In this document: piece by piece, positions 3,827 through 25,445 of the stretch | How positions within the stretch are numbered: position 1 is the stretch's first letter | Layout of the letters: the number at the start of each line of letters is the position of its first letter | Origin: a virus | Length of the DNA stretch: 25,445 bases | Virus record (IMG/VR): IMGVR_UViG_3300009161_001752 | Span: 1-25,445 of that record | Strand: one strand, 5' to 3' | Program-made: the position numbers and the translations under genes | The notes under the pieces: model-generated | Seen by the model: the letters and a program-made list of their open reading frames with translations, nothing else | Databases searched by the model: none | Told to the model about the DNA's origin: nothing

Positions 3827-4666
3827 ATGAAAAAAATGCAAGCAATTGGTGCTCCATTTCAAATAGAATATTCATCAAATTCTAATTTATTGCCACAATC
3901 CTTCAGTTGGATCGCGGAAGACTTTCCTGTAAAAGTTTTTATAGATGGTGGAATTGCCATCGGAATGTCTTATCAAAAGAAACCTGGAACACTGAAAATA
4001 GCATGGGTTTGCGAATCGCGTGCTATTTTTCATGCAATGAACTTTCCAAGAGAAGTTTGGGAAGAACAATTTTTAAATATTTGCGATTCATATGATCTTC
4101 TTTTTACTTCTGAGAAGAGTTGGTTGGGAAAGCATCCAAATGTAAGATATTGTCCAGCAGGAAGTAATCTTCCATGGATAAAGAACCAAGATATTTTTCC
4201 AAAAACAAAATTAGCATCTATGATTGCTTCTCCCAAGAAATTTGCATTTGGACATGCTATTCGTCATCAATTGGCAGAACAATATAAAAATAACCTTGAT
4301 CTGTATGGTGGAGTTCTTGGATCTCGTAGATTAAGTCCAGGTGTTCCGTGGGGCGATAAGTCTGAAGGACTGAATGATTATATGTTTTCTATTACTGTGG
4401 AAAATGATAAGTACAGTACATATTATACAGAGAAAATAACTGATTGTTTTGCTACGGGAACAATACCAGTATATTGGGGAGCACCAGATATTGGTGATAT
4501 CTTCAACAAAGATGGAATTATAGAATTAACTCCAGATTTTGATCCAAAAACATTGACAAAAGAACTATATGAAAGTAAACTTGATGCAGTAAGAGACAAC
4601 TTTAATCGGGTTAAAGAACTTGTTTCTGCTGATGATCAATTATTTAAATTAATCAATGAAAACTGA
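3827..4666 (+). CDS. GT10-family (fucosyltransferase-like) glycosyltransferase
   Basis: This 279-aa protein carries the family-10 alpha-1,3-fucosyltransferase donor motif at residues about 186-220: FSITVEN, then YYTEKITDCF, then GTIPVYWGAP. GT10 enzymes use GDP-L-fucose or close analogues. No signal peptide or membrane segment is visible, so it should act in the cytoplasm. The open frame extends back to GTG 3809, but ATG 3827 is preferred because GGAGA (3813-3817) sits 9 nt ahead of it. It is the first gene of the glycosylation island, 27 nt after regA, and overlaps the next gene by 11 nt. The GDP-mannose 3,5-epimerase encoded at 12470 could supply GDP-L-galactose, a donor that plant fucosyltransferases are known to accept; that link is inference. 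Confidence 0.88.
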   Translation: MKKMQAIGAPFQIEYSSNSNLLPQSFSWIAEDFPVKVFIDGGIAIGMSYQKKPGTLKIAWVCESRAIFHAMNFPREVWEEQFLNICDSYDLLFTSEKSWLGKHPNVRYCPAGSNLPWIKNQDIFPKTKLASMIASPKKFAFGHAIRHQLAEQYKNNLDLYGGVLGSRRLSPGVPWGDKSEGLNDYMFSITVENDKYSTYYTEKITDCFATGTIPVYWGAPDIGDIFNKDGIIELTPDFDPKTLTKELYESKLDAVRDNFNRVKELVSADDQLFKLINEN

Positions 4667-5324
4667 AATTGTATCCTTTTATTGTGATATAGATGATCGT
4701 ACATACTATAGCGATCACGCGCGTCGTCTGAGAATCAATTGCAATGAGAATAATATTCCACATGATATTCGCGAATTACCTTCGCGTGGTGAATACCGTT
4801 TAAATTGTCTTGCTAAACCAAGATTCATTCTTTCTGTGTTGGAAGAAAAGAAACGACCATTTGTGTGGATGGATGTTGATTCTTTGATTCATGCTGAACT
4901 TTCTATATTTGATACCCTGAAAGACAACTGCGATATGGCATTTGCATATCAAGGCAATCCTCCAGATGTGAATCCCAATTTACCCAAAGCATCACCAATT
5001 TATGTAAATTATACAGAAAAGACTATACAGTGTTTGACTTACTGGGTTGAACGATGCGAATTCAATGAAATGAATTTGGGTGTGAAATTTTTTGATCATG
5101 AAGTTCTGATGGGTGAAGTATTGCCAGAATTTTTATCCAAGATGCGAATTGGTATGCTTGGACATCCATATGCCATATGGCCTGGAACATCATTGCCAGA
5201 AGGATTCACGCCAATGATAACAATGGGAATTGCTGATGGAAAATCCAAAGAAAATTCACTGAGAGAAATGGGACTTCGAGAAGAAATCGTAAAATTTAAC
5301 TTAGTAGGTAATGCAAGTGAATAA
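4656..5324 (+). CDS. Putative GT-A glycosyltransferase with DxD motif
   Basis: This 222-aa protein has a typical GT-A start (strand, helix) and the segment KPRFILSVLEEKKRPFVWMD leading into D73-V-D75 (DVDSL), a metal and nucleotide-sugar binding DxD motif. After it come a substrate-side segment with FAYQGN (about residues 96-101) and a late FDHEVLMG. This is like bacterial and phage nucleotide-sugar transferases of GT77- or GT8-like type, but I cannot name a family with certainty. It begins inside the last codons of the GT10 gene and its 3' end overlaps the start of the next gene, which suggests coupled translation. Sugar and acceptor are unknown. No signal peptide is seen. Confidence 0.75.
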   Translation: MKTEIVSFYCDIDDRTYYSDHARRLRINCNENNIPHDIRELPSRGEYRLNCLAKPRFILSVLEEKKRPFVWMDVDSLIHAELSIFDTLKDNCDMAFAYQGNPPDVNPNLPKASPIYVNYTEKTIQCLTYWVERCEFNEMNLGVKFFDHEVLMGEVLPEFLSKMRIGMLGHPYAIWPGTSLPEGFTPMITMGIADGKSKENSLREMGLREEIVKFNLVGNASE

Positions 5325-6051
5325 ACAAGTTTTATTTTGGCAACCAGCTGGCATTGGTGATATATTCTTCTTACAGAAGGCAGCAAGACATTTTATATCT
5401 TCAGAATATGAAGTCATATGGCCTGTGATTCCAGAATTCCTATACATCAAGGATTACATCAAGGGAATCAATTTTGTAAATGTAAATGAAGATTTTCCTC
5501 GTAAGGAATTATATAAGACACCAATTGCAATCAATACAGAAGAATTCATTTATATTCCTTTTGATATTTCACATCATAGATTTGGTGTGCTACCGATGAA
5601 GGGCAAGTATCTGTTGATGCAATTCCTGGGATTTGATGTCAATGAAAATAATTGGAAAGATTATTTGCAATTTGAACGAAATCAAGAACGAGAGATTCGT
5701 TGTAAGGAAATCCTTGGTATAAAGAACGAACCATTTATTTTTGTGAATAATATGTTTGCTTCTCCACCTGATATGGTATACAGGGAAGTCAATATTACAA
5801 ATTCAAATATAAAGTGTGTATACCATAAACCAGAACATATCAAACTATTCAATGTATTTGATCTATGCTGGGTTATTGAGAATGCTGTAGAGATTCATAC
5901 AGTTGAAACTTCACTTTGCTATCTTGTTGAAAAACTAAATACTAAAGGAAAACTGAACATGTATTCGCGAAAAGTGAATGACAGATTGCAGAATCCAGAT
6001 TTTTCATATGTTGACCATATTTATAAAAAGGATTGGAATTATATAATATGA
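5311..6051 (+). CDS. Putative GT9-like (heptosyltransferase-like) GT-B glycosyltransferase
   Basis: The 246-aa protein opens with a strand followed by PAGIGDIFFLQKAARHF, the glycine-rich loop pattern (GxGD) seen at the N-terminus of ADP-heptose:LPS heptosyltransferases (GT9). Near the C-terminus, a VETSLCYLVEKL segment resembles the GT-B donor-site helix. Similarity is limited to these motifs, so GT9-like is inference. Start choice is uncertain: ATG 5311 has AGG only 2 nt upstream, while GTG 5317 has the same AGGT at 8 nt, a much better spacing, giving 244 aa. The gene overlaps the previous one by 14 nt and ends in an ATGA-type overlap with the next. LPS- or glycan-related function fits the context. 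Confidence 0.62.
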   Translation: MQVNKQVLFWQPAGIGDIFFLQKAARHFISSEYEVIWPVIPEFLYIKDYIKGINFVNVNEDFPRKELYKTPIAINTEEFIYIPFDISHHRFGVLPMKGKYLLMQFLGFDVNENNWKDYLQFERNQEREIRCKEILGIKNEPFIFVNNMFASPPDMVYREVNITNSNIKCVYHKPEHIKLFNVFDLCWVIENAVEIHTVETSLCYLVEKLNTKGKLNMYSRKVNDRLQNPDFSYVDHIYKKDWNYII

Positions 6052-6428
6052 TGCTTGAAGTTTCTATTGGCGAGGCAATTGACAAATATACAATTCTTAC
6101 AATCAAAGAAGAATGTATCAAAGACGAGAGAAAACTCGTAAATATTAAAAAAGAAAGAATGGAAATTGAAAAATCCCTGATAGATCAGGGATACTTTTAT
6201 TCATTCATCGAAGAGATGGCAGACTTGACTAAAGTAAATAAAACTCTTTGGGATATAGAAGATCAGATACGAATTAAAGAAGCAAATAAACAGTTCGATC
6301 ATGAGTTCATAGAACTTGCAAGATCTGTTTATATTACTAATGATAAAAGATTTGAAATTAAAAATCAAATCAATCAAAAGTCAAATTCGAATCTCAAAGA
6401 AGAAAAGTCGTATGCCAAATACAATTGA
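6048..6428 (+). CDS. DUF6165-like helical protein
   Basis: This 126-aa protein starts MMLEVSIGEAIDKYTILTIK, a pattern I associate with the uncharacterised DUF6165 family found beside glycosyltransferases in bacteria and phages. The remainder is almost entirely charged helix with coiled-coil character (EERKL, KKERMEIEKSL, ENKQFD-like segments) and ends in a basic tail. No enzyme motif is visible, so an adaptor or complex-forming role is possible, but no function should be assumed. ATG 6048 overlaps the preceding stop (ATGA); ATG 6051 is an equal alternative, and the in-frame TTG 6033 is unlikely. Its last 17 nt overlap the next gene. A hairpin at 6173-6192 lies inside it. Confidence 0.75.
   Translation: MMLEVSIGEAIDKYTILTIKEECIKDERKLVNIKKERMEIEKSLIDQGYFYSFIEEMADLTKVNKTLWDIEDQIRIKEANKQFDHEFIELARSVYITNDKRFEIKNQINQKSNSNLKEEKSYAKYN
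6173..6192 (+). other. Intragenic hairpin (8-bp stem) followed by T-rich bases
   Basis: ATCCCTGA (6173-6180), loop TAGA and TCAGGGAT (6185-6192) form a perfect 8-bp stem, followed by ACTTTTATT. It looks like a weak intrinsic terminator, but it is within the DUF6165-like coding frame, so it may only attenuate transcription or may be incidental. Confidence 0.5.
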
Positions 6429-7122
6429 TATATCAGATATAACATTTCTTGGAGTGGACGGTGTTGGTAATGATGCAACTATATTGCGTTCATTAAAATA
6501 CAGCAAACAATTTTTTCCAAATGCTAAAGTTAAATTTTTAACTTCAGGAAATCATCATTCAATCGATCCTGATATTGAACATGTGCAAATACGAAATCTT
6601 GGATACGATGAATTTAGCAAATTCTGTTTAACTGAATTGTATCGGTATTTTGATACTAGTTATATGATATATTGTCATGGTGATGGGTTTGCCACAAATC
6701 CAAATGCATGGACTGGTGAATTTTTAAAATATGATTATCTAGGAGCACCTTGGCCAAGATCTAATCTAGAAAGAAGTTCAAATAGATGGGAATTGGTTAA
6801 AAAAGCGTACTACGAATCACAAAAAACTTATTTTGTTGGGAATGGTGGATTTTCATTTAGATCTAAAAAATTAATGGAATCTGTAAGTCAACTGTACAAA
6901 GATGAATATTATGGTATACCAGAAGATCTTGTCATAGCAATAATCATGCGAAAACAACTGGAAAAACAAGGATTTAAATTTACAAGTGATATAGGAGTTG
7001 CTGGTAAGTTTTCATGTGAAGCACCCTTTGTAGATGGATACATACTTTCATCGGATGAGAGTTTTGGATTCCATTGTGGTGGAACTCATCCCCACAAAGT
7101 GAAATTATTGGAGACTGTATGA
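6412..7122 (+). CDS. DUF5672-family putative glycosyltransferase (copy 1)
   Basis: This 236-aa protein shows the DUF5672 pattern. An N-terminal strand (ITFLGVDGVG) is followed by MIYCHGDGF, NPNAWTGEFLKYDYLGAPW, VGNGGFSFRSKKLM, an acidic ED (PEDLVI) and a C-terminal FGFHCGG. The family is believed to be GT-A-like and occurs in sugar gene clusters; the HGDGF and GNGGFSFRS blocks probably bind donor and acceptor. It is a paralogue of the protein at 10390. The frame extends upstream to 6316, but ATG 6412 (MPNTIDIS) is preferred because homology with the paralogue begins there. The stop forms an ATGA overlap with the epimerase at 7119. Confidence 0.85.
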   Translation: MPNTIDISDITFLGVDGVGNDATILRSLKYSKQFFPNAKVKFLTSGNHHSIDPDIEHVQIRNLGYDEFSKFCLTELYRYFDTSYMIYCHGDGFATNPNAWTGEFLKYDYLGAPWPRSNLERSSNRWELVKKAYYESQKTYFVGNGGFSFRSKKLMESVSQLYKDEYYGIPEDLVIAIIMRKQLEKQGFKFTSDIGVAGKFSCEAPFVDGYILSSDESFGFHCGGTHPHKVKLLETV

Positions 7123-8114
7123 AGGTTTTAATTACTGGTGTTGCTGGTCTTTTAGGTTCTCGTCTTGCTGATTGGTTGATTGAGAATGACAAAGCAACGG
7201 TGTATGGTATTGATGATCTTTCTGGTGGATACATCCAGAATGTAAATTCTAAAGTTGTTTTTTACAACTACGACCTTACAAGCAATAGCAAAAAAATAGA
7301 ATATCTTTTCAAGGAACATAAGTTTGATTATGTCTTTCATTTTGCCGCATATGCTGCTGAAGGGTTAAGTCCTTTCATTCGTCAATATAATTATGAAAAT
7401 AATCTGATTGCAACTACAAAGTTGATCAATCTTAGCATCAAGCACAAGATCAAGAGATTTGTATTTACATCGACCATGGCAGTTTATGGCAATGGTGAAG
7501 TTCCCTTCAAGGAATCGCATCAGCAAGCACCAATAGATCCATATGGCATTGCAAAATATGCGTGTGAGATGGATCTCCATGTTGCAGGAGAACAGCATGG
7601 TCTTGATTGGTGTATCTTTAGACCTCACAATGTATATGGTGTCAATCAAAACATCTGGGACAAGTATAGAAATGTTTTAGGTATTTGGATGTATCAGCAT
7701 CTTAACGGTATGCCAATGACGATCTATGGTGATGGAGAGCAAACCAGAGCATTTAGTTATATTGATGACTGTGTTCCATACTTTTGGATGGGTGCTATTG
7801 AAGATAAGGCATCAAAGCAAATATTCAATATTGGTGGAGATGATCATATTTCTATAAATGATGCTTGCAATTTGTTAATTGATGTGATAGGATCTGGAAC
7901 CAAACAACATCTTGAACAACGACATGAAGTAAAACATGCATGGGTGACGCATGATAAGATCAAGGATGTTCTTGGATATAAGCAAGTAACAACTCTAAAA
8001 GACGGATTGAGTAAGATGTGGGAGTGGGCAAAAACTCAACCAATGCGTGAAAGAAAACTATGGTCGAAGTATGAATTAGATGTGGGCATTTACAACTATT
8101 GGAAAGTGAAATAA
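7119..8114 (+). CDS. NAD-dependent sugar-nucleotide epimerase/dehydratase (extended SDR)
   Basis: The 331-aa protein is a complete extended short-chain dehydrogenase/reductase of the UDP-glucose 4-epimerase type. It has the NAD-binding GVAGLLG (residues 7-13), an acidic ribose-binding D32, the HFAAYAAEG region (74-82), catalytic S/T in FTSTMAVYG (116-124) and Y142-x3-K146 (PYGIAKY). GEQTRAFSYIDD (206-217) follows. Exact substrate cannot be read from sequence. ATG 7119 overlaps the preceding stop and has GGAGA 4 nt before it. Its last 262 bp (residues about 246-331) are duplicated at 9544-9805, listed separately. The aminotransferase at 8116 starts 1 nt after its stop, suggesting a keto- to amino-sugar route. 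Confidence 0.9.
   Translation: MKVLITGVAGLLGSRLADWLIENDKATVYGIDDLSGGYIQNVNSKVVFYNYDLTSNSKKIEYLFKEHKFDYVFHFAAYAAEGLSPFIRQYNYENNLIATTKLINLSIKHKIKRFVFTSTMAVYGNGEVPFKESHQQAPIDPYGIAKYACEMDLHVAGEQHGLDWCIFRPHNVYGVNQNIWDKYRNVLGIWMYQHLNGMPMTIYGDGEQTRAFSYIDDCVPYFWMGAIEDKASKQIFNIGGDDHISINDACNLLIDVIGSGTKQHLEQRHEVKHAWVTHDKIKDVLGYKQVTTLKDGLSKMWEWAKTQPMRERKLWSKYELDVGIYNYWKVK
7853..8114 (+). repeat. Duplicated epimerase 3' segment, copy A
   Basis: This segment aligns without gaps to 9544-9805 (offset 1691), with about 30 mismatches by hand count and one block of 67 identical bases (7921-7987 versus 9612-9678). It encodes the last 86 residues plus stop of the epimerase. Similarity stops sharply upstream of TATAAATG. 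Confidence 0.9.
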
Positions 8115-8115
8115 T

Positions 8116-8751
8116 ATGGCACAAGGTGTACATAAAATTACAGAACAGTTCGAGGAAAAGGTAGCAGAATATACTGGTGCGCCTTATGCTGTTGCTCTTG
8201 ACAACATGAGTAACGCATTGTTTCTTGCTTTGTATTATGAGAAAGTTCAAGGACTTGAGATCACAATACCAGCAAGAACTTATATGTCAGTTCCCTGTGA
8301 AATTATTCATGCTGGTGCAAAAGTAAAATTTGAACCAGTCGAAGGAACCAAGATCAAAGGTGGGTATCAACTAAAACCAACAAAGGTTTGGGATTGCGCA
8401 TTGCAATTCACAACAAACATGTATGTGCCAAATACACATATGTGTTTATCTTTCACTGGACCATATAAGCATCTTAAATTGGGCAAGGGTGGCATGATAA
8501 TTACTGATGATGTGGATGCGTACAAGTGGTTCAAGAAAGCAAGATTTAGTGGAAGAAATGAGTGTTCTTATCACGAAGATACATTTGATATGTTGGGGTG
8601 GAACTTCTATATGATGCCAGAGATTGCTGCCCGTGGTCTTCTTCTGATGACACAGTTTTATAATCTTGATGGCACTCCAAAACACAATCCAGATCTTGAA
8701 TTACCATATCCAGATCTTTCAAAGCATCCAGTATATACAGATAGTAAATAA
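8116..8751 (+). CDS. DegT/DnrJ/EryC1-type sugar aminotransferase, lacking the C-terminal domain
   Basis: The 211-aa protein matches the PLP-binding large domain of DegT/DnrJ/EryC1/StrS aminotransferases. It has ALDNMSNALFLAL (about residues 27-39), the PLP-ring aspartate in VWDCALQF (D93), the Schiff-base lysine region SFTGPYKHLKLGKGG (K118 probable) and the GWN-x5-PEIAARGL segment that normally precedes the small domain. Full enzymes are about 360-400 residues, so the C-terminal small domain is absent. The next gene begins at the stop (TAATG overlap), so there is no room for a frameshifted remainder. It may work as a minimal enzyme, pair with another protein or be decayed. It follows the epimerase by 1 nt. 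Confidence 0.82.
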   Translation: MAQGVHKITEQFEEKVAEYTGAPYAVALDNMSNALFLALYYEKVQGLEITIPARTYMSVPCEIIHAGAKVKFEPVEGTKIKGGYQLKPTKVWDCALQFTTNMYVPNTHMCLSFTGPYKHLKLGKGGMIITDDVDAYKWFKKARFSGRNECSYHEDTFDMLGWNFYMMPEIAARGLLLMTQFYNLDGTPKHNPDLELPYPDLSKHPVYTDSK

Positions 8752-9497
8752 TGATTCATATATTTTTTAGACATTATAATGTTGGTGGAAGCAATAATGC
8801 TGCAAGACAAGACAATCGTTATCAAGCACGATCTGCTCGTCGTTGGGGAAATGTAGACAATTGGTTTAATTATGAAAAAGTATTTTTAAATCTTCTTCGT
8901 ACTACTGCTGGTGCTAATGTTAAGATTAATGTTGTTATGGATGGCATCATCGAAGAAAATTGGATTGCAAAATACAAAAATAAATTTACACCATATGAAA
9001 TTGTCGGTGGAACTGATTTTGCGTCATTTTTTCCAACAATGGATATTGTAAAAAATGATACATCTATTCGACAAAATGATATAGTTTATCTTTTAGAAAA
9101 TGATTATCTTCATGTTGATGGATGGGTTTCAAAGGTAGAAGAACTCTACACAATGTACAATGATAATGTAAGTTATGTTTCACTATACGATCATTTGGAT
9201 AAATACATTTATGATCATTATTCGCATTTGAGGGAAAAGATTATTATAACCAGAACCCATCACTGGAGAACTACCCCAAGCACAACGGGAACATTCATGT
9301 TAAGTAAGAAAATCTTCGATGAGGATTATGATGTTCATTCGACACGAAAAGAAGATCATGGTAAATTTGTATGGTTACAAGAAAATAGAAAAAGATTTCT
9401 GTTGACTCCTATCCCTGGATTATCAACTCATTGTGTTGGAGAATGTTCACCCACAATTGATTGGCAAGCAATTAGCGATAGAGAGGTAATACAGTGA
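8751..9497 (+). CDS. Putative glycosyltransferase, GT-A-like
   Basis: This 248-aa protein begins with a short strand (IHIFFRHYN) and has a GT-A-like layout: INVVMDG (residues about 59-65), NDIVYLLENDYLHVDGW (about 108-124) where END may replace a DxD, and TPSTTGTFMLSKKIF (about 175-189). A conserved-looking PGLSTHCVGE (222-231) lies near the end. I cannot place it in a named family. Its position among sugar-transfer genes supports a glycosyltransferase role, which remains inference. Start ATG 8751 overlaps the preceding TAA by one base; the stop overlaps the next start codon (GTGA). Confidence 0.6.
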   Translation: MIHIFFRHYNVGGSNNAARQDNRYQARSARRWGNVDNWFNYEKVFLNLLRTTAGANVKINVVMDGIIEENWIAKYKNKFTPYEIVGGTDFASFFPTMDIVKNDTSIRQNDIVYLLENDYLHVDGWVSKVEELYTMYNDNVSYVSLYDHLDKYIYDHYSHLREKIIITRTHHWRTTPSTTGTFMLSKKIFDEDYDVHSTRKEDHGKFVWLQENRKRFLLTPIPGLSTHCVGECSPTIDWQAISDREVIQ

Positions 9498-9805
9498 ATA
9501 CAGTTGAAGAATCGTATCGTGCATTGTCTTTGAGTGCATCGGATATAAATGATGCTTGCAATTTGTTAATTGATGTGGTAGGATCAGGTACTAAACAGCA
9601 TCTCGAACAGAGACATGAAGTAAAACATGCATGGGTGACGCATGATAAGATCAAGGATGTTCTTGGATATAAGCAAGTGACATCTTTAAAAGATGGATTG
9701 GGTAAAATGTGGGAATGGGCAAAGACCCAACCCATGCGGGAGAGAAAGTTATGGGATAAGTATGAATTGGATAAAGGAATTTACAACTATTGGAAAGTGA
9801 AATAA
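9494..9805 (+). CDS. Epimerase C-terminal fragment, translated or relict
   Basis: This 103-aa frame has 17 unrelated N-terminal residues followed by 86 residues that match the end of the epimerase at 7119, with only 5 differences. It lacks the NAD-binding and catalytic parts of an SDR, so it cannot be an enzyme by itself. It keeps a good start: GTG 9494 in a GTGA overlap with GAGAGGTAA ahead. Most of the roughly 30 base differences from the parent are silent, so the sequence diverged under protein-level selection either before or after truncation. Likely origin is a deletion or recombination between two related epimerase genes that fused another gene's first codons to this tail. It may be a relict or a small binding protein. 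Confidence 0.7.
   Translation: MNTVEESYRALSLSASDINDACNLLIDVVGSGTKQHLEQRHEVKHAWVTHDKIKDVLGYKQVTSLKDGLGKMWEWAKTQPMRERKLWDKYELDKGIYNYWKVK
9544..9805 (+). repeat. Duplicated epimerase 3' segment, copy B
   Basis: This is the partner of 7853-8114, collinear and ungapped to the stop codon. Bases after the stop differ (AATATGG in copy A, AAAATGA in copy B), so the duplicated unit ends almost exactly at the end of the coding sequence. Confidence 0.9.
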
Positions 9806-9807
9806 AA

Positions 9808-10332
9808 ATGAATAAACCAAATTTAAAACAAGAAAGAATGCATGGAATGGGAGATGCTGGTGGAGTTAATTATATAGAAGGATTAGATGAACTTTGTTTA
9901 TTTTTTAAAATGAACAAAAATCATAAAGTTCTAGAATTAGGTTGTAATGATGGAGTTAGCACATCTTTATTTGCATACTATGCTGATGTTGTTGATACTG
10001 TTGATATAGTTTTAACAGAAAAAATGAAAAATATTTTAAATTTTCATAAAAACATTAATTTTAAACAAGGAAGTATTTCTCAGATAGTTCCAAATTTAAT
10101 TGATGATTATTATGATTTTATTTATATTGACGCAGATCATTCTTTTCATTCTGTAGTACATGATATAAATGTTAGTCTTCCAAAATTAAAAAAAACTGGA
10201 ATAATGTCTGGACATGATTATATACCAGATAGTCCAACATTATTTGGAGTAAGTCAAGCAGTAAATAGTTTATTTAATATTGAAAAAATTAAAGTTTTTT
10301 CTGATTATAGTTGGGCAATTATTGGAGAATAA
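9808..10332 (+). CDS. Class I SAM-dependent methyltransferase (Methyltransf_24-like), copy 1
   Basis: The 174-aa protein has the SAM-binding motif VLELGCNDGVSTS (residues 41-53), an acidic strand end about 20 residues later (VDTVDIV), and YDFIYIDADHSFHSVVHDI, the motif-IV region typical of small Methyltransf_24-type sugar or glycan methyltransferases. Substrate is unknown; context suggests O-methylation of a sugar. The frame extends to 9790 inside the previous gene, but ATG 9808 (MNKPNLKQ) is the sensible start. The ribosome-binding site is poor (GGAAAG about 10 nt upstream). A paralogue lies at 11113, with a DUF5672 gene between the two. Confidence 0.82.
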   Translation: MNKPNLKQERMHGMGDAGGVNYIEGLDELCLFFKMNKNHKVLELGCNDGVSTSLFAYYADVVDTVDIVLTEKMKNILNFHKNINFKQGSISQIVPNLIDDYYDFIYIDADHSFHSVVHDINVSLPKLKKTGIMSGHDYIPDSPTLFGVSQAVNSLFNIEKIKVFSDYSWAIIGE

Positions 10333-10337: not shown

Positions 10338-10376
10338 ATGAAATGTTTAGTAATTGCAATGGTCTTACTATACTGA
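10338..10376 (+). other. Possible 12-codon micro-ORF or gene-start relict
   Basis: The gap between 10332 and 10390 contains ATG 10338 with GGAGAA 8 nt upstream. It encodes MKCLVIAMVLLY and then stops. The sequence looks like the first beta strand of a Rossmann-type or glycosyltransferase protein. It may be the leftover start of a deleted gene, or a short leader whose translation opens the next start region. Evidence is only the start, ribosome-binding site and hydrophobic strand. Confidence 0.25.
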
Positions 10377-17942: not shown

Positions 17943-19718
17943 ATGGCATTTCCAATAAATCCAATTTCAGGAACCACACACGGCGTTAATAGTCGTGTGT
18001 GGTCATATAATGGCATCGCGTGGGATAGACTAGATCTAGGAACTAGCACAGGGGGTTCTGGTGGTATTAGTGGTCCTTATGTAATATCCATAAACGGATT
18101 CATTGGTGGGGTCACGCTCTCAGCGGGGTCTGGTATCACTCTAAGTGGTACTGGTGGAATTATAACAATTTCCACTACTGGTACTGCTGGTCAAGGAACA
18201 ATATTCTATTATCAAGCTACTGGTCCAAGTTCTGGTATAACTACTGGCGACAGGTGGATGGATTCCGATACAGGAATTGAATTTGTATACATCAACGATG
18301 GCAATTCTCCACAATGGGTTCAACCATTAAATGCTGGAACCGTGGGACCAGCAGGTGCAGCAGGAAATACTGGTAATACTGGAAATACTGGTATTCAAGG
18401 AAATACTGGTAATACTGGAAATACTGGTTCTCCAGGTATTCAAGGCAACACTGGTAATACTGGAAATACTGGTTCTCCAGGTATTCAAGGAAATACAGGT
18501 AATACTGGTGCTACAGGTATTCAAGGAAATACTGGTAATACTGGTTCTCCAGGTATTCAAGGAAATACAGGTAATACTGGTTCTCCAGGTATTCAAGGAA
18601 ATACTGGTAATACAGGAAACAATGGAAACACAGGAAACACAGGTAATACTGGAAACACTGGTAATACTGGTAACAATGGAAACACAGGTGCTACTGGTTA
18701 TGGATATACTGCTGCTGGTATTTCTGGTGGGTTCCTTTGGATATCGCCAGTAGATGAATTTGGTATTCGTGGAGCATCATTCTCCATTGGATATGTTCAA
18801 GGTAATACAGGTAATACAGGAAACAATGGAAACACAGGTAATACTGGAAACACTGGTAACAATGGAAACACAGGTGCTACTGGATCTGGTTATACTGGAA
18901 TTGGTATATCTGGTGGATTCTTGTGGATATCACCAGTAAATAATTCTGGTAAAGGTGCTTCTTTTAGTATAGGATATGTTCAAGGAAATACTGGTAATAC
19001 AGGAAACAATGGAAACACAGGAAACACAGGTAATACTGGAAACACTGGAAACACAGGTTCAACTGGTGCTACTGGTTATGGATATACTGCTGCTGGTATT
19101 TCTGGTGGGTTCCTTTGGATATCGCCAGTAGATGGATTTGGTATTCGTGGAGCATCATTCTCTATAGGGTATGTTCAAGGAAATACTGGTAATACAGGAA
19201 ACACTGGTAATACAGGAAATACTGGAAATACAGGAAACACAGGTAATACAGGTGCTACTGGTAACACAGGTTCAACTGGTGCTACTGGTTATGGATATAC
19301 TGCCGCTGGTCTTTCTGGTGGATTCTTGTGGATATCACCTATAGATGGATTTGGTATTCGTGGAGCATCATTCTCTATAGGATATGTTCAAGGTAATACT
19401 GGTAATACAGGTGCTACTGGTCAAGCACCAATATTCTATTATCAAGCTACTGCTCCGACTTCTGGTATAACGACTGGCGACAGGTGGATGGATTCCGATA
19501 CAGGAATTGAATTTGTATATATCTACGATGGTAACTCTCCACAATGGGTACAACCATTAAATGCTGCATCTCAAGGTAGTCAATATCTCTACGAGTTGAC
19601 TCCCGCTTCCGCTACTGCGACAGGAACAAAAGGAGACATTGTTTACGACACAAACTACATCTATGTCTGCATAGCAACTGACACTTGGAAGCGGACAGCA
19701 ATTTCTACTTGGGTGTGA
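17943..19718 (+). CDS. Collagen-like virion fibre protein (591 aa)
   Basis: This mosaic fibre protein has several parts. A W-rich N-terminus (FPINPISG, then RVWSYNGIAWDRLDLG) is similar in type to the 19752 and 25185 starts. A PYVISINGFIGGV segment follows, then a GDRW module (nt 18201-18336), five Gly-X-Y tracts dominated by GNT (18345-19424), and four copies of a 35-aa module with SGGFLWISP between tracts. A second GDRW module (19431-19566) and a C-terminal strand-rich end (GDIVYDTNYIYVCIA, then TAISTWV) complete it. It probably trimerises through the collagen-like parts and forms a tail- or head-attached fibre. The start has an exact late box and an early hairpin. Location in the virion is not readable from sequence. 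Confidence 0.88.
   Translation: MAFPINPISGTTHGVNSRVWSYNGIAWDRLDLGTSTGGSGGISGPYVISINGFIGGVTLSAGSGITLSGTGGIITISTTGTAGQGTIFYYQATGPSSGITTGDRWMDSDTGIEFVYINDGNSPQWVQPLNAGTVGPAGAAGNTGNTGNTGIQGNTGNTGNTGSPGIQGNTGNTGNTGSPGIQGNTGNTGATGIQGNTGNTGSPGIQGNTGNTGSPGIQGNTGNTGNNGNTGNTGNTGNTGNTGNNGNTGATGYGYTAAGISGGFLWISPVDEFGIRGASFSIGYVQGNTGNTGNNGNTGNTGNTGNNGNTGATGSGYTGIGISGGFLWISPVNNSGKGASFSIGYVQGNTGNTGNNGNTGNTGNTGNTGNTGSTGATGYGYTAAGISGGFLWISPVDGFGIRGASFSIGYVQGNTGNTGNTGNTGNTGNTGNTGNTGATGNTGSTGATGYGYTAAGLSGGFLWISPIDGFGIRGASFSIGYVQGNTGNTGATGQAPIFYYQATAPTSGITTGDRWMDSDTGIEFVYIYDGNSPQWVQPLNAASQGSQYLYELTPASATATGTKGDIVYDTNYIYVCIATDTWKRTAISTWV
17973..18003 (+). other. Early-coding hairpin in fibre gene
   Basis: ACCACACACG (17973-17982) and CGTGTGTGGT (17994-18003) are a perfect 10-bp inverted repeat around an 11-nt loop, starting 30 nt after the start codon. 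No T run follows. In mRNA it could slow or gate translation of the fibre gene. Confidence 0.6.
18201..18336 (+). repeat. GDRW module, first DNA copy
   Basis: This 136-bp segment is nearly identical to 19431-19566 (offset 1230) in the same gene. It encodes the FYYQAT to QWVQPLNA module, with only a few substitutions. Confidence 0.85.
18345..18695 (+). repeat. Collagen-like Gly-X-Y tract 1 of 17943 gene
   Basis: About 117 codons of Gly-X-Y, mostly GNT with GSP-GIQ blocks. The nine-base repeat varies at silent positions (GGT/GGA, AAT/AAC, ACT/ACA). Further tracts follow at 18801-18881, 18984-19073, 19179-19286 and 19392-19424. Confidence 0.9.
18696..19391 (+). repeat. Four SGGFLWISP modules alternating with GNT tracts
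   Basis: Modules lie at 18696-18800, 18882-18983, 19074-19178 and 19287-19391, each about 34-35 residues. Each begins GY or GS, then GYTAAGISGGFLWISPV, and ends GASFSIGYVQ. Related copies are at 22064-22168 and 25377 onward in other fibre genes. Confidence 0.9.
19431..19566 (+). repeat. GDRW module, second DNA copy
   Basis: This is the partner of 18201-18336. The two copies flank the whole collagen-like part of the protein, so recombination between them would delete all Gly-X-Y tracts in frame (1230 bp is divisible by three). Confidence 0.85.
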
Positions 19719-19751: not shown

Positions 19752-20900
19752 ATGCCATTAGATTTCCCTCCATCCCCAGCACCGAATTATATTTATACCT
19801 TTGGCACTTCTTCTTGGAAGTGGACTGGTGATTCGTGGACAGTTTATTCTACTCCACTTTTGGGTAACACTGGTGCTACTGGCAACACAGGTGCTACTGG
19901 TCCAGTTGGTGATTATGTAATTACATTCAATGGAAGAACTGGTAACATTCAAGGTGTGACATCAATCAATGGTGCTACAGGTACTATAATAAATGTGGCA
20001 TTTACAAATCTAGGAAATACCTTTACTGTCAGACAGGTAATGAATGCTGGTCTTACGACTTCTTCTATAAATGTTGCTGGTGTAGCATCATTCAATCCAT
20101 CAAACAGCGGACAGAATACTTTAGGCGGAACAAGTACCACTCTTGCATCAACTGCCACGACAGTTCAGAATACAGCAGCACTGCTGACTATTTCAACCAC
20201 TTTCTTACCAGGAAACAATGCTACGCTCAGACTACAGGGATCTGATGGAAGTGGTGAAACTTCATATACTAATGATATTAAACCCCAGACTACACAGACT
20301 GGAAATTTAACACATACTCTGCCAGCGACTACAGGAACATTACTGAATGATAAATTACAGTATGTTGCTTCAATAAATGGAAGAACGGGTGACATTCAAG
20401 GTGTGACATCAATCAATGGTGCTACAGGTACTATAATAAATGTGGCATTTACAAATCTTGGAAATACCTTTAGTGTTTGTCAAGTATTCAATGCTGGCAT
20501 AACCGCCTCTGGTGGAATGACATTATTTGGATCATTAAATTCTTATAGTGGAATTTCTGCTTCTGGCATCACATCAGATTCTGGGTATAAAATAACAGCT
20601 GGTGCAATCAATGCCCAAACAGTAAGTTATACTATGCTAGGATCAGACAACGGCAAAATCATAACCATGAATCCTGCTTCTACAGGAATCACACTTACTG
20701 TTCCTACTGGATTGCCCATCGGTCACACAACAACAATTATTCGTCTTAGCTCTACTCTAAATGTTGGAATAAGTGCCGCTAGTGGTGTGACAATCAATAG
20801 TTTCCAGAATCAGAAAAATATTGCTGGTCAACATGCTGCTGTAAGTTTGATTTCTTATACCACCGATACATTCAATCTTGCAGGAGGACTGACAGGATGA
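19752..20900 (+). CDS. Fibre or tail structural protein (382 aa) with repeated NGxTG module
   Basis: The N-terminus (MPLDFPPSPAPNYIYTFG, then WKWTGDSW) closely matches the start of the gene at 25185, suggesting a shared attachment domain. A short Gly-X-Y stretch (GNTGATGNTGATGP) is followed by two near-identical modules starting FNGRTGNIQG and INGRTGDIQG. Then come beta-strand-rich repeats and a C-terminal part with TLTVPTGLPIGHTTTIIRL and a NLAGG end, as in phage fibre or baseplate-associated proteins. It is probably virion-exposed. AAGGA 6 nt before the ATG and a TATAAATA late box support the start. The stop overlaps the next gene (ATGA). The exact structural role is unknown. Confidence 0.82.
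   Translation: MPLDFPPSPAPNYIYTFGTSSWKWTGDSWTVYSTPLLGNTGATGNTGATGPVGDYVITFNGRTGNIQGVTSINGATGTIINVAFTNLGNTFTVRQVMNAGLTTSSINVAGVASFNPSNSGQNTLGGTSTTLASTATTVQNTAALLTISTTFLPGNNATLRLQGSDGSGETSYTNDIKPQTTQTGNLTHTLPATTGTLLNDKLQYVASINGRTGDIQGVTSINGATGTIINVAFTNLGNTFSVCQVFNAGITASGGMTLFGSLNSYSGISASGITSDSGYKITAGAINAQTVSYTMLGSDNGKIITMNPASTGITLTVPTGLPIGHTTTIIRLSSTLNVGISAASGVTINSFQNQKNIAGQHAAVSLISYTTDTFNLAGGLTG
19929..20025 (+). repeat. NGxTG module, DNA copy 1
   Basis: This 97-bp segment matches 20376-20472 (offset 447) with 3 mismatches. It encodes NGRTG through the LGNTF segment. The near identity at DNA level points to recent duplication or gene conversion. Confidence 0.88.
20376..20472 (+). repeat. NGxTG module, DNA copy 2
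   Basis: This is the partner of 19929-20025; 447 bp between copies keeps the reading frame. Confidence 0.88.
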
Positions 20901-21412
20901 TACTTCCTAATTGTCGTCCTGCATATTTAACACCAATACAGATCAAAGGATCCAATACTCCAGCAGCAGTGAATTGGACCAATATAAGATTTACCGCGTC
21001 TTCGGGAACACATCAATTCACAGAACAGCAAATAACAGGAATTTCAACTCCTATAGTTTTAAGTGTGAATGGAGCATGGGGATCCAATAGTACATTATAT
21101 TATCGTGTTGCTCCAACTACAACGCCATTGCCAAACCCTTTACTCAATAAAGATGTATTTGTAGGAGTAACAGCATTTGATTACGCTGTAGGATTTGGAT
21201 CATCCTCACAAGGATTCACTGCATGTCTTCCATTCAATAGTACTGGAAGCACTTTTGCAGTGAATAATAATGATTTTGTTGCATTTATATGCTGGGGTGC
21301 TGATCAGGCGCCTGGTCCATCAGTTATATTCCCAACATGGACAGTTACAGTCAATAACGAATCTGCTGGTGCAGCTACTTTGGATACTTTTGACGCAATA
21401 ACAAATCCATAA
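20897..21412 (+). CDS. Hypothetical virion-associated protein (171 aa)
   Basis: This protein is rich in Ser, Thr, Asn, Gly and aromatic residues with a beta-sandwich-like pattern: NWTNIRFTASSGTHQFTEQQ (about 26-45), PIVLSVNG, LYYRVAPT, DVFVGVTAFDYAVGFG and FPTWTVTVNN towards the end. No known family is recognised. AGGAGG (20882-20887) is a strong ribosome-binding site, and the start overlaps the stop of the 382-aa fibre gene, so the two are probably co-expressed late. A structural role beside the fibres is inferred from position and composition. Confidence 0.7.
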   Translation: MILPNCRPAYLTPIQIKGSNTPAAVNWTNIRFTASSGTHQFTEQQITGISTPIVLSVNGAWGSNSTLYYRVAPTTTPLPNPLLNKDVFVGVTAFDYAVGFGSSSQGFTACLPFNSTGSTFAVNNNDFVAFICWGADQAPGPSVIFPTWTVTVNNESAGAATLDTFDAITNP

Positions 21413-21430: not shown

Positions 21431-21862
21431 ATGCCAGCATCACGGTACGATATTCAAGCAGATCAGGGAGCAACATTCAAGTTGCATTTGCATTATAAAT
21501 TTTCTGGTGGAACTGGAATTGATATTGGAAACTTTACAGGAAGAATGCAAGTCCGAAGATCCTCAAAAGATCCAAATGTTATTTTATTCTTAACTCAAAA
21601 TGGTGTTACTGGTGGTGGTATTACTGGAGAATTTGCTATTGGTAGTGGAATTGCTGGTAGTGGTGGAATTAGTTTCAATACTTCTATTTCTGGAGCAACA
21701 GCATTTACTGGTGGAATATTTCTAAGAGTTGATGCTGATACTATGACTAATGTTCCAAATGGAAAGCATTTTTATGATCTTGAATTAAAGAATTCGCTCA
21801 ATGAAGTGATGAGACTTATGGAAGGTTCATTTGAAGTCTCAAGAGAAATTACGAGAACATAA
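21431..21862 (+). CDS. Structural protein with Ig-like baseplate or fibre pattern (143 aa)
   Basis: The protein has the layout of small phage tail or baseplate beta proteins: an opening YDIQADQGATFKLHLHYK (5-22), GRMQVRRSSKDPNVILFL (37-54), a loop rich in Gly with GGITGEFAIGSG, and a closing HFYDLELKNSLNEVMRLM (113-130) followed by GSFEVSREITRT. This resembles the BppU N-terminal-like and cyanophage tail-fibre-associated domains, but the assignment is by pattern only. GGAGA lies 6 nt before the start. It is followed after 3 nt by the 989-aa fibre gene, so it may be an adaptor or attachment protein for that fibre. Confidence 0.72.
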   Translation: MPASRYDIQADQGATFKLHLHYKFSGGTGIDIGNFTGRMQVRRSSKDPNVILFLTQNGVTGGGITGEFAIGSGIAGSGGISFNTSISGATAFTGGIFLRVDADTMTNVPNGKHFYDLELKNSLNEVMRLMEGSFEVSREITRT

Positions 21863-21865: not shown

Positions 21866-24835
21866 ATGGCAGAAGAGAAACCAATACTGGTAGTAACTCA
21901 AATTCCTCCGAACACAATTGTTACGGAGAGTTCTGCTAATAACTTAGTAGTCAATAACACATTACCATCCACAGTATTGATTGCTGCTGCATTGGGGCCA
22001 GCAATTGCTGGTGGTGCTGGTGCTCAAGGTATAAGAGGAACTACAGGTGCTACTGGTGCTACTGGTTCTGGTTATACTGCAATTGGTCTTTCTGGTGGGT
22101 TTCTTTGGGTTTCTCCTGTAAGTAATACTGGAGTTCGTGGAGCATCATTTTCCATTGGATATGTTTTAGGATCAACTGGTAACACTGGAAATACTGGTAT
22201 TCAAGGTAACACTGGTAACACTGGTAATACTGGTTCTCCAGGTATTCAAGGAAATACAGGTAACACTGGTAACACTGGAAATACTGGTTCTCCAGGTATT
22301 CAAGGTAACACTGGTAATACTGGAAACACTGGTTCTGATGGTTCTCCAGGTATTCAAGGAAATACAGGTAATACTGGTTCTCCAGGTATTCAAGGTAACA
22401 CTGGTAATACTGGAAACACTGGTGCTCCAGGTATTCAAGGTAACACTGGTAATACTGGTTCTCCAGGTATTCAAGGAAATACAGGTAATACTGGAAACAC
22501 TGGTTCTCCAGGTATTCAAGGAAATACAGGTAATACTGGTTCTCCAGGTATTCAAGGTAACACTGGTAATACTGGTAATACTGGTTCTCCAGGTATTCAA
22601 GGAAATACAGGTAATACTGGTTCTCCAGGTATTCAAGGAAATACAGGTAATACAGGTAATACTGGAAACACTGGTGCTCCAGGTATTCAAGGAAATACAG
22701 GTAATACTGGTTCTCCAGGTATTCAAGGAAATACAGGTAACACTGGTAATACAGGTATTCAAGGAAATACAGGTAACACTGGTAATACAGGTAATACTGG
22801 TTCTCAAGGTCCATCTGGTGGTGTTAATTTTGCTTTTGGTGCAACTGCTCCTTCCAACCCAACTGGTGGAGATCAATGGTTAGATAGCAATACTGGAGCA
22901 TTGCTCACTTATTTTTATGACGGAAATTCTTCTCAATGGGTTCAATTCCTTAAAGGAATTCCTGGTCCTCAAGGAGCAACTGGTCCGAGCGGAGTAGTCT
23001 CTGGTGATTATGTTGCTTTGTTCAATGGAAAAACTGGAAATGTTGGTATTTCTGCTGGATCGTTCATAACAATCACTCAAACAGGAAACACATTTACAAT
23101 ATCTTCTAGTGTAGGAACTGTTGCAGGTTCTACAGGAAATACTGGTGCTACTGGTTCTCCAGGTATTCAAGGTAACACTGGTAACACTGGTAATACAGGT
23201 ATTCAAGGTAACACTGGTAACACTGGTAATACAGGTATTCAAGGTAACACTGGAAATACTGGTAACACTGGAAATACAGGTATTCAAGGTAACACTGGTA
23301 ATACTGGTAACACTGGAAATACAGGTATTCAAGGTAACACTGGTAACACTGGTAACACTGGTATTCAAGGTAACACTGGTAACACTGGAAATACAGGTAT
23401 TCAAGGTAATACTGGAAATACTGGAGCATGTGGTCCAACCGATATACGATCAACAAATTCAGCATCCACATTCTATCCATTATTTGCTGGAGGTTCTGGA
23501 AATACTTACATTTATATTGATGATGTCACTACACCATTTACATATGTCCCAAGTAGTGGTGCATTAACAGCAAAGATATTCGCCATAGCAACTGGAGTTA
23601 ATTCATCCTCATTGAACGCAACCTATGTTGAATTTAATACTAGTACAGACTCATCAAGTGTTTCTGCTACCAATATTGGTAATGTTGGATCATCACCATT
23701 TACAGTTCAATCAAATGTTAAATTAAAATTAACTGCTCCAACTATAGAATTTTATGGATCTGGTTGGGGATATACATTCCCTGCATCAAATGGAACTACT
23801 GGTCAAGCATTACTGACAAGAGGTGATGCTGGACTTTATTGGGGAACGGTTTCTACATCTGGTGGTAGTGGAACAACTCTATTTGCTGGAAGAGGAATTA
23901 CTCTAACTACAGCATCCGCAGGAACTACAGTTGCTACTATTCTAGGAATGACCAGTGCGAATGATGGATTCTTGATTTCTGGTGGTATAACCCAAAGAAC
24001 TCTTGGATTTAGTGGTGGTGATGTGACAATTGAAGGTGGAACATTTGCATCAGTAATAACATTCCCAACTGTATCTACAACACTTGTTGGAATTCACAAT
24101 GCAGTAACTTCGTTCAATGGATCAACTGGTGATATTACATTCGCTGGTGGTGTTACTGGAGTGAATGGTAAAACTGGAAATGCTTTTGTGTTTGAATATT
24201 ATCTAGGGTTTACTTCCACCGTAAACACTTCAACATATCCAGAAGGTGGAACTGCTAATTATGCGTCAAATCAACCAGTATATTACAGTTCCTCACCATT
24301 TAATGATATAATATCATCGGGTAGAGCAAAACCAAATAGAGTTTATTTTAATCCATTTGTAATTCCAACCCAAACAACAATACAAATATTGCGACTTAGT
24401 GGATATCAAAACGGATTATGTGGTGGAACTGGAAATGTATTTTTAGGAATATATAATGCAAATTCTTATGGTATGCCAAAAGACAAACTATATTCGTCCA
24501 GCAGTCTAGTAGTATTAAGTGATTTTGCCAATACTCATGATTATAATCCTTCTGGATTGATTACTCTATCTCCTGGATATTATTATCTTGCAGCAGTATT
24601 TAATAATAATCCTACACTATATTCGTTTACTACTGGAGCGCAAACCAGTACAAGTCCATTTGGATCTCAAAATCTTGCTGGTGGATATCAGAACCGAGCT
24701 ATTATTATAGATCAGGGTGGATTTACCTTACCGATAAGTGGAATCACTAGTGGTGCTAGATTTGTTGATTATAGCGTTGGTGGAACATATACAAATCTTA
24801 TGGTAAGTCCACTAATAGAATTTAGGATTCTATAA
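21866..24835 (+). CDS. Giant collagen-like fibre protein (989 aa)
   Basis: The longest gene here has, in order, an N-terminal region (1-55), a SGGFLWVSP module (nt 22064-22168), a long Gly-X-Y tract of about 217 codons (22169-22819) built from GNTGNTG and SPGIQ blocks, a GDQW module and an NGKTGNVG segment (22820-23125). A second Gly-X-Y tract (23126-23434) follows. The non-repetitive C-terminal about 466 residues have beta-rich segments, another NGSTGD/NGKTGN pair and an ending with Tyr- and Ser-rich loops (NLMVSPLIEFRIL). The last part is probably the distal receptor-binding or trimerisation domain. No Shine-Dalgarno is seen; it is likely coupled to the previous gene. Confidence 0.88.
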   Translation: MAEEKPILVVTQIPPNTIVTESSANNLVVNNTLPSTVLIAAALGPAIAGGAGAQGIRGTTGATGATGSGYTAIGLSGGFLWVSPVSNTGVRGASFSIGYVLGSTGNTGNTGIQGNTGNTGNTGSPGIQGNTGNTGNTGNTGSPGIQGNTGNTGNTGSDGSPGIQGNTGNTGSPGIQGNTGNTGNTGAPGIQGNTGNTGSPGIQGNTGNTGNTGSPGIQGNTGNTGSPGIQGNTGNTGNTGSPGIQGNTGNTGSPGIQGNTGNTGNTGNTGAPGIQGNTGNTGSPGIQGNTGNTGNTGIQGNTGNTGNTGNTGSQGPSGGVNFAFGATAPSNPTGGDQWLDSNTGALLTYFYDGNSSQWVQFLKGIPGPQGATGPSGVVSGDYVALFNGKTGNVGISAGSFITITQTGNTFTISSSVGTVAGSTGNTGATGSPGIQGNTGNTGNTGIQGNTGNTGNTGIQGNTGNTGNTGNTGIQGNTGNTGNTGNTGIQGNTGNTGNTGIQGNTGNTGNTGIQGNTGNTGACGPTDIRSTNSASTFYPLFAGGSGNTYIYIDDVTTPFTYVPSSGALTAKIFAIATGVNSSSLNATYVEFNTSTDSSSVSATNIGNVGSSPFTVQSNVKLKLTAPTIEFYGSGWGYTFPASNGTTGQALLTRGDAGLYWGTVSTSGGSGTTLFAGRGITLTTASAGTTVATILGMTSANDGFLISGGITQRTLGFSGGDVTIEGGTFASVITFPTVSTTLVGIHNAVTSFNGSTGDITFAGGVTGVNGKTGNAFVFEYYLGFTSTVNTSTYPEGGTANYASNQPVYYSSSPFNDIISSGRAKPNRVYFNPFVIPTQTTIQILRLSGYQNGLCGGTGNVFLGIYNANSYGMPKDKLYSSSSLVVLSDFANTHDYNPSGLITLSPGYYYLAAVFNNNPTLYSFTTGAQTSTSPFGSQNLAGGYQNRAIIIDQGGFTLPISGITSGARFVDYSVGGTYTNLMVSPLIEFRIL
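22169..22819 (+). repeat. Long Gly-X-Y tract A of giant fibre
   Basis: About 217 codons of uninterrupted Gly-X-Y. Unit blocks are GSPGIQ followed by two to four GNT triplets; many neighbouring blocks are identical at the DNA level over 25-40 bases, with other blocks varied at silent positions. Confidence 0.9.
23126..23434 (+). repeat. Gly-X-Y tract B of giant fibre
   Basis: About 103 codons of Gly-X-Y. GIQ punctuates runs of two to four GNT triplets, with GSP only at the start and GACGP at the end. It is more regular than tract A. Confidence 0.9.
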
Positions 24836-25170
24836 TGAAAGTATTCAAACAATACAGTTTCAACGAACTCACACAAGAATCAACTTTAATAGATGATAGA
24901 GATTTTTATCATTGTAAACAATTTCAATTAAAAGAGCTAAGAAATATTGCTAACAAACTGATTATCTCTAGTGTTCCAGAATATAAGCAAAGAAACGCAG
25001 CACTTGGATTGCTGTCTGATGAAGAAACACAACAGATTAAAGATTCAATACAAGCAATAAGAACAATATCAAATCAAAAAGAAGCAGAGATACTCGCAGT
25101 TGTTTGGGATGGACAAGAATCCACAAGAGCAGAAGCGTGTGATATAGTTCAGAGGATATTCTGGGAATAA
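24835..25170 (+). CDS. Small helical protein after fibre gene, possible fibre-assembly factor
   Basis: This 111-aa protein begins on the last base of the giant fibre stop (TAATG) with AGGA 7 nt before the ATG. It is mostly helical: QFQLKELRNIANKLIISS (29-46), EYKQRNAALGLLSDEETQQI (49-68), IQAIRTISNQKEAEILAVVW (72-91) and a final AEACDIVQRIFWE. Small helical genes directly after long fibre genes often encode assembly chaperones, and the EYKQRNAALGL-type segment recurs in tail-associated phage proteins as far as I recall. The function is inferred, not shown. Confidence 0.6.
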   Translation: MKVFKQYSFNELTQESTLIDDRDFYHCKQFQLKELRNIANKLIISSVPEYKQRNAALGLLSDEETQQIKDSIQAIRTISNQKEAEILAVVWDGQESTRAEACDIVQRIFWE

Positions 25171-25173
25171 ATA
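25166..25173 (+). promoter_or_regulatory. Late promoter-like box before last fibre gene
   Basis: AATAAATA, one base off the T4 late consensus, overlaps the stop of the preceding gene and lies 11 nt before ATG 25185. No Shine-Dalgarno is seen. Confidence 0.5.
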
Positions 25174-25184
25174 ATTAAACTACC

Positions 25185-25445
25185 ATGCCACTAGATTTTC
25201 CTTCAAATCCAACCCTCAATTTACCATACACTTTCAACGGAACTCAATGGAAGTGGAATGGTTCTGCTTGGTTGATTGTTGGTGATAATTTTGGTACTAC
25301 AGGAGCAACAGGACCAGCTGGAAATACTGGAAACACTGGTAATAATGGAACAACAGGTAACACTGGTGCTACGGGATCTGGTTATACTGCTGCTGGTCTT
25401 TCTGGTGGATTCTTATGGATAACTCCAGTTTTATCTTCTGGTATA
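25185..25445 (+). CDS. Collagen-like fibre protein, N-terminal part (3' end outside window)
   Basis: The frame is open from ATG 25185 to the window end (87 codons seen). It starts MPLDFPSNPTLNLPYTFNG, then QWKWNGSAWLIVGDN, matching the N-terminus of the 382-aa protein at 19752. Gly-X-Y triplets follow (TTGATGPAGNTGNTG, then GNNGTTGNTGATG), and then a SGYTAAGLSGGFLWITP module, the sixth copy of that module in the window. It is clearly another collagen-like fibre of the same modular set; its full length is unknown. Confidence 0.88.
   Translation, partial: MPLDFPSNPTLNLPYTFNGTQWKWNGSAWLIVGDNFGTTGATGPAGNTGNTGNNGTTGNTGATGSGYTAAGLSGGFLWITPVLSSGI

Follow-up and report, generated by a model that had tools for sequence, protein, structure and literature searches.

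The locus

The stretch of DNA analysed here (hereafter, the window) comprises positions 1 to 25,445 of the IMG/VR virus record IMGVR_UViG_3300009161_001752 and is a fragment of a freshwater T4-like phage, with genes for gp46, the sliding clamp gp45, the clamp loader proteins gp44 and gp62, and regA. Between regA and a set of fibre genes lies an island of about 14 kb encoded on a single strand, in which + strand genes that overlap or almost touch one another form an unbroken block from 3809 or 3827 to 17914; the fibre genes, also on the + strand, start at 17943 and occupy the window to its end. An original prediction, made from the sequence alone, had correctly described this one-strand run of sugar-related genes into fibre genes, and had proposed that the phage glycosylates its own collagen-like fibres. 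The genomic link to collagen-like genes that is described below concerns the last gene of the island, which encodes a protein with a GT2 glycosyltransferase domain and tetratricopeptide repeats (GT2-TPR), and not the island as a whole. The left edge of the insertion site, this gene and the fibre cluster are as follows:

3404..3799, + strand: regA, left edge of the insertion site (PF01818, E 6.9e-41)
16700..17914, + strand: GT2-TPR, candidate protein glycosyltransferase, last gene of the island (PF00535, E 2e-14)
17943..19718, + strand: collagen-like fibre 1, 71 triplets, mostly GNT (PF01391, E 1.9e-31; PHROG tail fibre)
19752..20900, + strand: fibre-like protein whose only triplet run is short (by inspection of the sequence)
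20897..21412, + strand: small protein of the fibre cluster (by position in the cluster)
21431..21862, + strand: tail-fibre assembly-like protein (phrog_1084, E 1.2e-19; phrog_3304, E 9e-7)
21866..24835, + strand: collagen-like fibre 2, 107 triplets, mostly GNT (PF01391, E 2.3e-49)
24835..25170, + strand: small protein of the fibre cluster (by position in the cluster)
25185..25445, + strand: collagen-like fibre 3, start only (489 amino acids in the relative L612)

Collagen-like fibres rich in threonine

The two long fibres score 108 and 165 bits against the collagen repeat PF01391, whose gathering cut-off is 27.2. Across the window, 184 Gly-X-Y triplets can be counted in runs of at least 6, fewer than the several hundred announced in the original prediction, which was nevertheless right about their composition: GNT makes up 110 of the about 178 triplets of the two long fibres, threonine occupies the Y position (Thr-Y) in 126 of the 184 triplets (68%; 53 of 71 in fibre 1), and proline fills just 21 of 368 X and Y positions (6%). 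GNT is encoded by 8 and 6 different synonymous 9-mers, which argues that the amino-acid motif is maintained and is not merely a DNA repeat. The 117.8-kb relative G097 has three collagen fibres with 246 triplets (runs of at least 5).

Outside the fibre cluster, a small open reading frame between gp46 and gp45 (834-1154) contains a GDRW-type motif (FYYQAT..GDRWMDS) resembling the non-collagen domains of the fibres.

The GT2-TPR enzyme at the island-fibre joint

Only 28 bp separate the end of the GT2-TPR gene from the start of fibre 1. A single-sequence search of the PDB with its product returned just four matches (E up to 1), to GmaR and SunS/ThuS, and a profile search recovered GmaR and SunS/ThuS at E 3e-15 and 6e-12. 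The AlphaFold model of the protein, with a pLDDT (predicted local distance difference test) score of 91, has SunS 7msn as its best Foldseek match (E 1.6e-15), and SunS/ThuS structures take places 1-6 (E 1.6e-15 to 1.4e-13), spanning both the GT and the TPR domains. The protein is thus composed of a GT-A domain followed by TPR, and its nearest solved structures, which include the flagellin O-GlcNAc transferase GmaR, make it a candidate protein glycosyltransferase. Those relatives whose acceptors are known are protein or peptide glycosyltransferases, which supports a fibre protein as the acceptor.

SunS and ThuS, which act on cysteines of bacteriocins, are the best relatives both in PDB sequence searches and in fold. 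However, the enzyme falls outside the curated SunS family TIGR04195 (47.3 bits, E 1.3e-12, against a cut-off of 350), and its identity to SunS/ThuS at the fold level is about 15-21%. In INPHARED, no close GT2-TPR was found; the best match (36.6%, Tunturi_5) does not lie beside an annotated collagen gene.

Linkage to Thr-Y collagen in phages and bacteria

Contigs were selected by their collagen patterns (GNT, GxT or GxK), regardless of any glycosyltransferases they carried. The counts in this section were made among the matches listed, which are not random samples, and they ignore kinship; some of the contigs labelled bacterial in the homologue survey may be prophage. A SunS-like glycosyltransferase is present in 24 of 50 contigs with Thr-Y collagen and in 4 of 46 with Lys-Y collagen (Fisher p 3e-5), and after dereplication in 13 of 39 versus 4 of 46 (p 0.006). 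Generic GT2 proteins are not clearly enriched in Thr-Y contigs without the SunS-like enzyme (5/26 versus 2/24 for Lys-Y).

Regarding position, 10 of the 17 dereplicated glycosyltransferase clusters have a collagen gene on their own strand no more than 700 bp away, where 2.8 are expected (P 4e-5). This strong signal appears only at that distance: the downstream-only test at 100 bp was non-significant (2/17, P 0.18), and the one for either side at 60 bp was borderline (4/17, P 0.07). Among the phage GT2-TPR clusters with enough sequence, 15 of 26 have collagen within 3 kb downstream. In bacteria of many phyla, 14 of 48 homologue loci lie no more than 6 kb from a collagen-like gene, far above background, since Pfam collagen of any kind was found in just 3 of 14 control genomes; most of these neighbouring genes are Thr-rich, in nearly all of them threonine is the most frequent Y residue or shares first place, and several are immediately adjacent. 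Divergent phages (L534-L537 and L546) show the link to GxT collagen as well, at other genomic places, as do bacteria. Moreover, (GxT)3 runs are present in all five GT2-TPR phage records longer than 100 kb (5/5) versus 3/9 complete T4-like phages without a close homologue. It is the divergent phages and the bacteria that carry the linkage argument, and adjacency within the phage's own group calls for caution.

Some of the neighbours deserve separate mention. In Pelistega suis (L588:2-5920), a protein of 1973 amino acids with 415 Gly-X-Y triplets, 386 of them Thr-Y and mostly GAT, is encoded beside a GT2-TPR homologue, and some Acinetobacter homologues adjoin genes for adhesin-looking proteins of about 1950 amino acids. 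A recurrent collagen-like protein of about 400 amino acids follows GT2-TPR in L137, L156 (where it is incomplete), L159, L161, L162 and L164; its tract of 55-58 triplets is nearly Thr-free and rich in Lys, Gln and Asp. A parallel arrangement occurs in a cyanophage, Synechococcus phage DSL-LC02 (L623, OR032571.1 44755-51199), where a GxT collagen-like gene is divergent from a beta-mannosyltransferase gene and two FkbM genes; the first of these encodes a methyltransferase, in a frame of 717 amino acids with a TPR-like match, and the whole group is flanked by tail fibre genes.

An exchangeable cassette at the regA insertion site

In close relatives, with 99% identity in regA, the flanks of the island are kept, namely the gene for a GT10 protein and the gene at 4656 on the left, and GT2-TPR on the right (99-100%). 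The part of the island between these flanks is a cassette that can be exchanged, and in L007/L100 and L010/L096 it is replaced, wholly or partly. L113 has GT2-TPR immediately after regA, and then the fibres. The association of the whole island with GNT fibres, which was part of the original prediction, is weakened to this extent: the link to Thr-Y collagen belongs to the GT2-TPR enzyme and not to the cassette.

The insertion site is nearly empty in the Pelagibacter phage HTVC008M, where regA is followed by one small open reading frame and then by gp43. In the lineage of the window, the fibre cluster continues to dUTPase, a MazG-like gene and gp43. Judging from these gene orders, a resident GT2-TPR would have gained sugar genes on one side and fibres on the other, or all three would have arrived in steps.

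Gene content of the island

The remaining island genes, in order, are the following:

3827..4666, + strand: GT10 protein of the fucosyltransferase family, in the conserved left flank (PF00852, E 5.7e-7, above the cut-off)
4656..5324, + strand: glycosyltransferase of predicted GT-A fold, conserved left flank (AlphaFold model, pLDDT 89)
5311..6051, + strand: possible glycosyltransferase, by impression only (no Pfam or PHROG match)
6048..6428, + strand: DUF6165 protein (PF19662, E 3.7e-11)
6316..7122, + strand: DUF5672 protein, unproven glycosyltransferase candidate (PF18922, E 1.7e-16)
7119..8114, + strand: SDR nucleotide-sugar epimerase/dehydratase (PF01370, E 8.7e-46; PDB 4zrm, UDP-glucose 4-epimerase, E 3e-47)
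8116..8751, + strand: short DegT-family protein, 211 amino acids, probably truncated (PF01041 in two separated stretches)
8751..9497, + strand: unproven glycosyltransferase candidate (no matches)
9494..9805, + strand: second copy of the 3' end of SDR gene 7119..8114 (sequence identity)
9790..10332, + strand: Methyltransf_24 protein (PF13578, E 2.4e-13)
10354..11109, + strand: DUF5672 protein, unproven glycosyltransferase candidate (PF18922, E 1e-19)
11113..11652, + strand: Methyltransf_24 protein (PF13578, E 8.7e-17)
11670..12473, + strand: GT17 glycosyltransferase (PF04724, E 2.8e-23)
12470..13498, + strand: GDP-mannose-3,5-epimerase-like SDR (PDB 2c59, E 1.6e-94)
13659..14525, + strand: unproven glycosyltransferase candidate (no matches)
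14522..15358, + strand: SDR nucleotide-sugar enzyme (PF01370, E 1.9e-30)
15351..16688, + strand: RfbH-type CDP-4-keto-6-deoxyglucose 3-dehydrase (NF011936, 477 bits, cut-off 423)

Of the about nine glycosyltransferase candidates originally proposed, four are supported: GT10, GT17 and GT2-TPR by Pfam, and the protein at 4656-5324 by its predicted fold, for which Foldseek matched the GT6 enzyme BoGT6a (E 3.5e-8) and 2p6w, the capsid glycosyltransferase of PBCV-1 (E 1.5e-7). GT10 is retained in relatives that have a different middle cassette. Up to five or six further candidates are unproven: those at 8751-9497, 13659-14525 and 5311-6051 and the DUF5672 proteins are not counted as glycosyltransferases because the PDB searches were uninformative. 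Single-sequence searches gave nothing useful for the first two, a profile search with an alignment of 9 sequences gave no PDB match for 5311-6051, and one with DUF5672 gave no informative match. The DUF6165 protein is likewise no more than a candidate.

The expectation of at least four sugar-nucleotide enzymes was borne out by three SDRs, RfbH and the truncated DegT protein. RfbH exceeds its curated cut-off, aligns to PDB 3bcx (E 7.8e-109), the YPAHHITMGEGG motif included, and carries the histidine motif of the pyridoxal-phosphate site (HHITMGEGG); a true RfbH points to a 3,6-dideoxysugar pathway. The DegT gene, about half the usual length and apparently shorter than its homologue in the relative L088, is probably internally deleted and inactive. 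Together with one gene without matches, it is flanked by two copies of the SDR 3' end (7119-8114 and 9494-9805, the latter 1.4 kb downstream). Since in the relative L010 the SDR gene lies directly beside the methyltransferase gene, this has the look of a two-gene cassette inserted by recombination in the window.

Proposed mechanism and its alternatives

The reading that we favour, with somewhat better than even confidence, is that the phage's own fibres are O-glycosylated in the cytosol, starting with GT2-TPR and using an exchangeable glycan cassette. According to this model, the island enzymes would act in the cytosol of the host and produce unusual nucleotide sugars, with RfbH probably leading to a 3,6-dideoxysugar. 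GT2-TPR, its TPR domain holding the acceptor peptide, would then place the first sugar on side chains that bear a hydroxyl group in freshly synthesised fibre proteins, the likeliest acceptors in the phage of the window being the Y-position threonines of GNT and GAT collagen triplets. GT10, the GT-A protein at 4656, GT17 and others would extend and cap the glycan, which the two methyltransferases may modify. The GT10/4656 pair and GT2-TPR would stay fixed, and the exchangeable middle of the island would set the type of glycan. Of all this, the content and order of the genes, the family and fold of GT2-TPR, the exchange of cassettes and the genomic link to GxT collagen genes are observed, whereas the fibre as acceptor, the residue, the sugar and the purpose are inferred. 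As for its purpose, the modification could serve surface masking, adsorption control, protease resistance or triple-helix stability; the stabilisation of a Pro-poor triple helix by sugar is speculation.

Several observations weigh against this model. A Thr-Y collagen gene does not lie beside the transferase in every relative, the exceptions being L137, L159, L161, L162, L164, L169 and G098, and in six or seven GT2-TPR phages the next fibre is a Thr-free or nearly Thr-free collagen. The 153.8-kb relative G098 shares at least ten island genes (GT2-TPR at 58%, most others at 69-85%), and its collagen of 56 triplets has almost no Thr-Y, with only short GPT runs elsewhere. Conversely, about half of the Thr-Y collagen contigs, among the matches listed, are without a SunS-like enzyme; one of them, a 211-kb contig, has 660 triplets, 71% of them Thr-Y, and no Pro, which means that the sugar added by GT2-TPR is not necessary for such tracts. 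Finally, regA, GT2-TPR and dUTPase follow one another in L140, L142 and L147, the island and the adjacent fibres being absent between them; within this T4-like group, adjacency may therefore have been inherited at a hot spot of insertion. The proposal that the island glycosylates GNT fibres has thus gained an enzyme of the protein-transferase type linked to Thr-Y collagen, and has lost its strict dependence on Thr-Y, which G098 and several other phages with the enzyme show not to be obligatory.

The main rival, which we regard as unlikely, is that the island alters the host surface (lipopolysaccharide or O-antigen) during infection, excluding competitors or aiding release, with the fibres merely sharing a host-recognition region. 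RfbH, SDR and glycosyltransferase genes of O-antigen type would suit such a role, and O-antigen-like sugar genes have indeed been ascribed to host-surface change, the glycosyltransferases of the pelagimyophage host-recognition cluster being read as modifying the O-chain (PMC7029224); this again counts against fibres as the substrate. However, neither flippase, polymerase, ligase nor initiating membrane transferase was found among the island genes, and a long hydrophobic segment was found in none of the island proteins, which fits cytosolic action. In addition, the enzyme encoded next to the fibres belongs to the protein-transferase type, with homologues that adjoin surface-protein genes. Next comes the glycosylation of capsid or tail proteins other than the collagen tracts, which seems less probable still. 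Mycobacteriophages are reported to carry glycans on capsid and tail tube (PMC12363180, which names Che8, Corndog and Myrna; PMC12619734), and in some cases (L099) GT2-TPR has as its neighbour a virion protein that lacks a long collagen tract, but the repeated linkage to collagen-like genes in phages and bacteria argues against this reading.

The same gene orders that call for caution above would also suit hot-spot hitchhiking, which ranks after these two and is improbable in our view: sugar and fibre genes would have been inserted between regA and dUTPase/gp43 around a resident GT2-TPR acting on another virion or cell protein. The regA-GT2TPR-dUTPase contigs, the nearly empty site of HTVC008M and the end of the window lineage's fibre cluster at dUTPase-MazG-gp43 agree with it; the GxT collagen link at other genomic places in divergent phages and bacteria does not, and the L140 contig has collagen with GxT runs elsewhere. 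Phage DNA glycosylation as in T4 would be in keeping with the T4-like background and with the frequent action of phage glycosyltransferases on DNA, and is nonetheless very improbable. The thymidylate-synthase/dCMP-hydroxymethylase family (PF00303) is found in 0 of 10 clade contigs, including those of 153.8 and 146 kb, none of which is certified complete, and several SDRs, RfbH and a peptide-type glycosyltransferase are not needed for such a modification. T4-type DNA glucosylation was therefore set aside, other routes to modified bases being still conceivable.

Comparison with known systems

The closest parallel to the proposed fibre glycosylation is found in Clostridioides difficile, whose SgtA, encoded immediately upstream of bclA3, has a GT-A domain and four C-terminal TPRs and adds beta-O-GlcNAc in vitro to threonines of BclA3 collagen-repeat (GPT) peptides (PMC7157674). 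Compared by published description, both systems pair a Thr-Y-rich collagen-like gene with a neighbouring gene for an enzyme of comparable size that combines GT-A and TPR (here at 28 bp, with 53/71 Thr-Y), an arrangement that recurs in phages and bacteria. However, BclA3 belongs to a bacterial spore exosporium, its triplets are GPT, and no large sugar island has been described beside it.

Among viruses, the pelagimyophage host-recognition cluster also comes from aquatic T4-like phages and has glycosyltransferases among tail fibres and collagen repeats in structural genes, but it lies between VrlC and gp14 and is interpreted as modifying host lipopolysaccharide (PMC7029224), whereas the cluster of the window lies between regA and dUTPase/gp43. 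In mycobacteriophages, phage-encoded glycosyltransferases modify virion proteins (Freeman et al. 2023, via PMC12363180 and PMC12619734); the acceptors there are capsid and tail-tube proteins, and no collagen is involved. Mimivirus L230 does glycosylate the virus's own collagen-like protein, albeit in a giant virus and through a bifunctional hydroxylase-transferase that puts glucose on hydroxylysine (PMC9614988). Phage virion glycosylation, virus collagen glycosylation and clusters of glycosyltransferases with fibres are therefore already known singly; what is new is their combination and a named candidate for the initiating enzyme.

If true, the proposed mechanism would assign a role to the islands of glycosyltransferase genes that are common in aquatic T4-like phages and are at present interpreted as modifying host LPS (lipopolysaccharide); it would name both enzyme and acceptor, and phage fibres would join the known glycosylated collagens. 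It could also explain how a nearly proline-free collagen holds together, and how phages change their surface identity through swaps of sugar cassettes. A broader version is doubtful: O-glycosylation of GxT threonines by a linked GT2-TPR would be widespread in collagen-like fibres of phages and bacteria, with sugar replacing hydroxyproline as the stabiliser of the triple helix and glycan cassettes ("glycotypes") being swapped behind a fixed initiating enzyme.

A minor observation concerns gp43 in the lineage of the window. In the relative G097 (L613:3016-7228), this DNA polymerase is encoded in two open reading frames about 1.6 kb apart, and the gap holds an rRNA/tRNA-methyltransferase-like gene and two small open reading frames.

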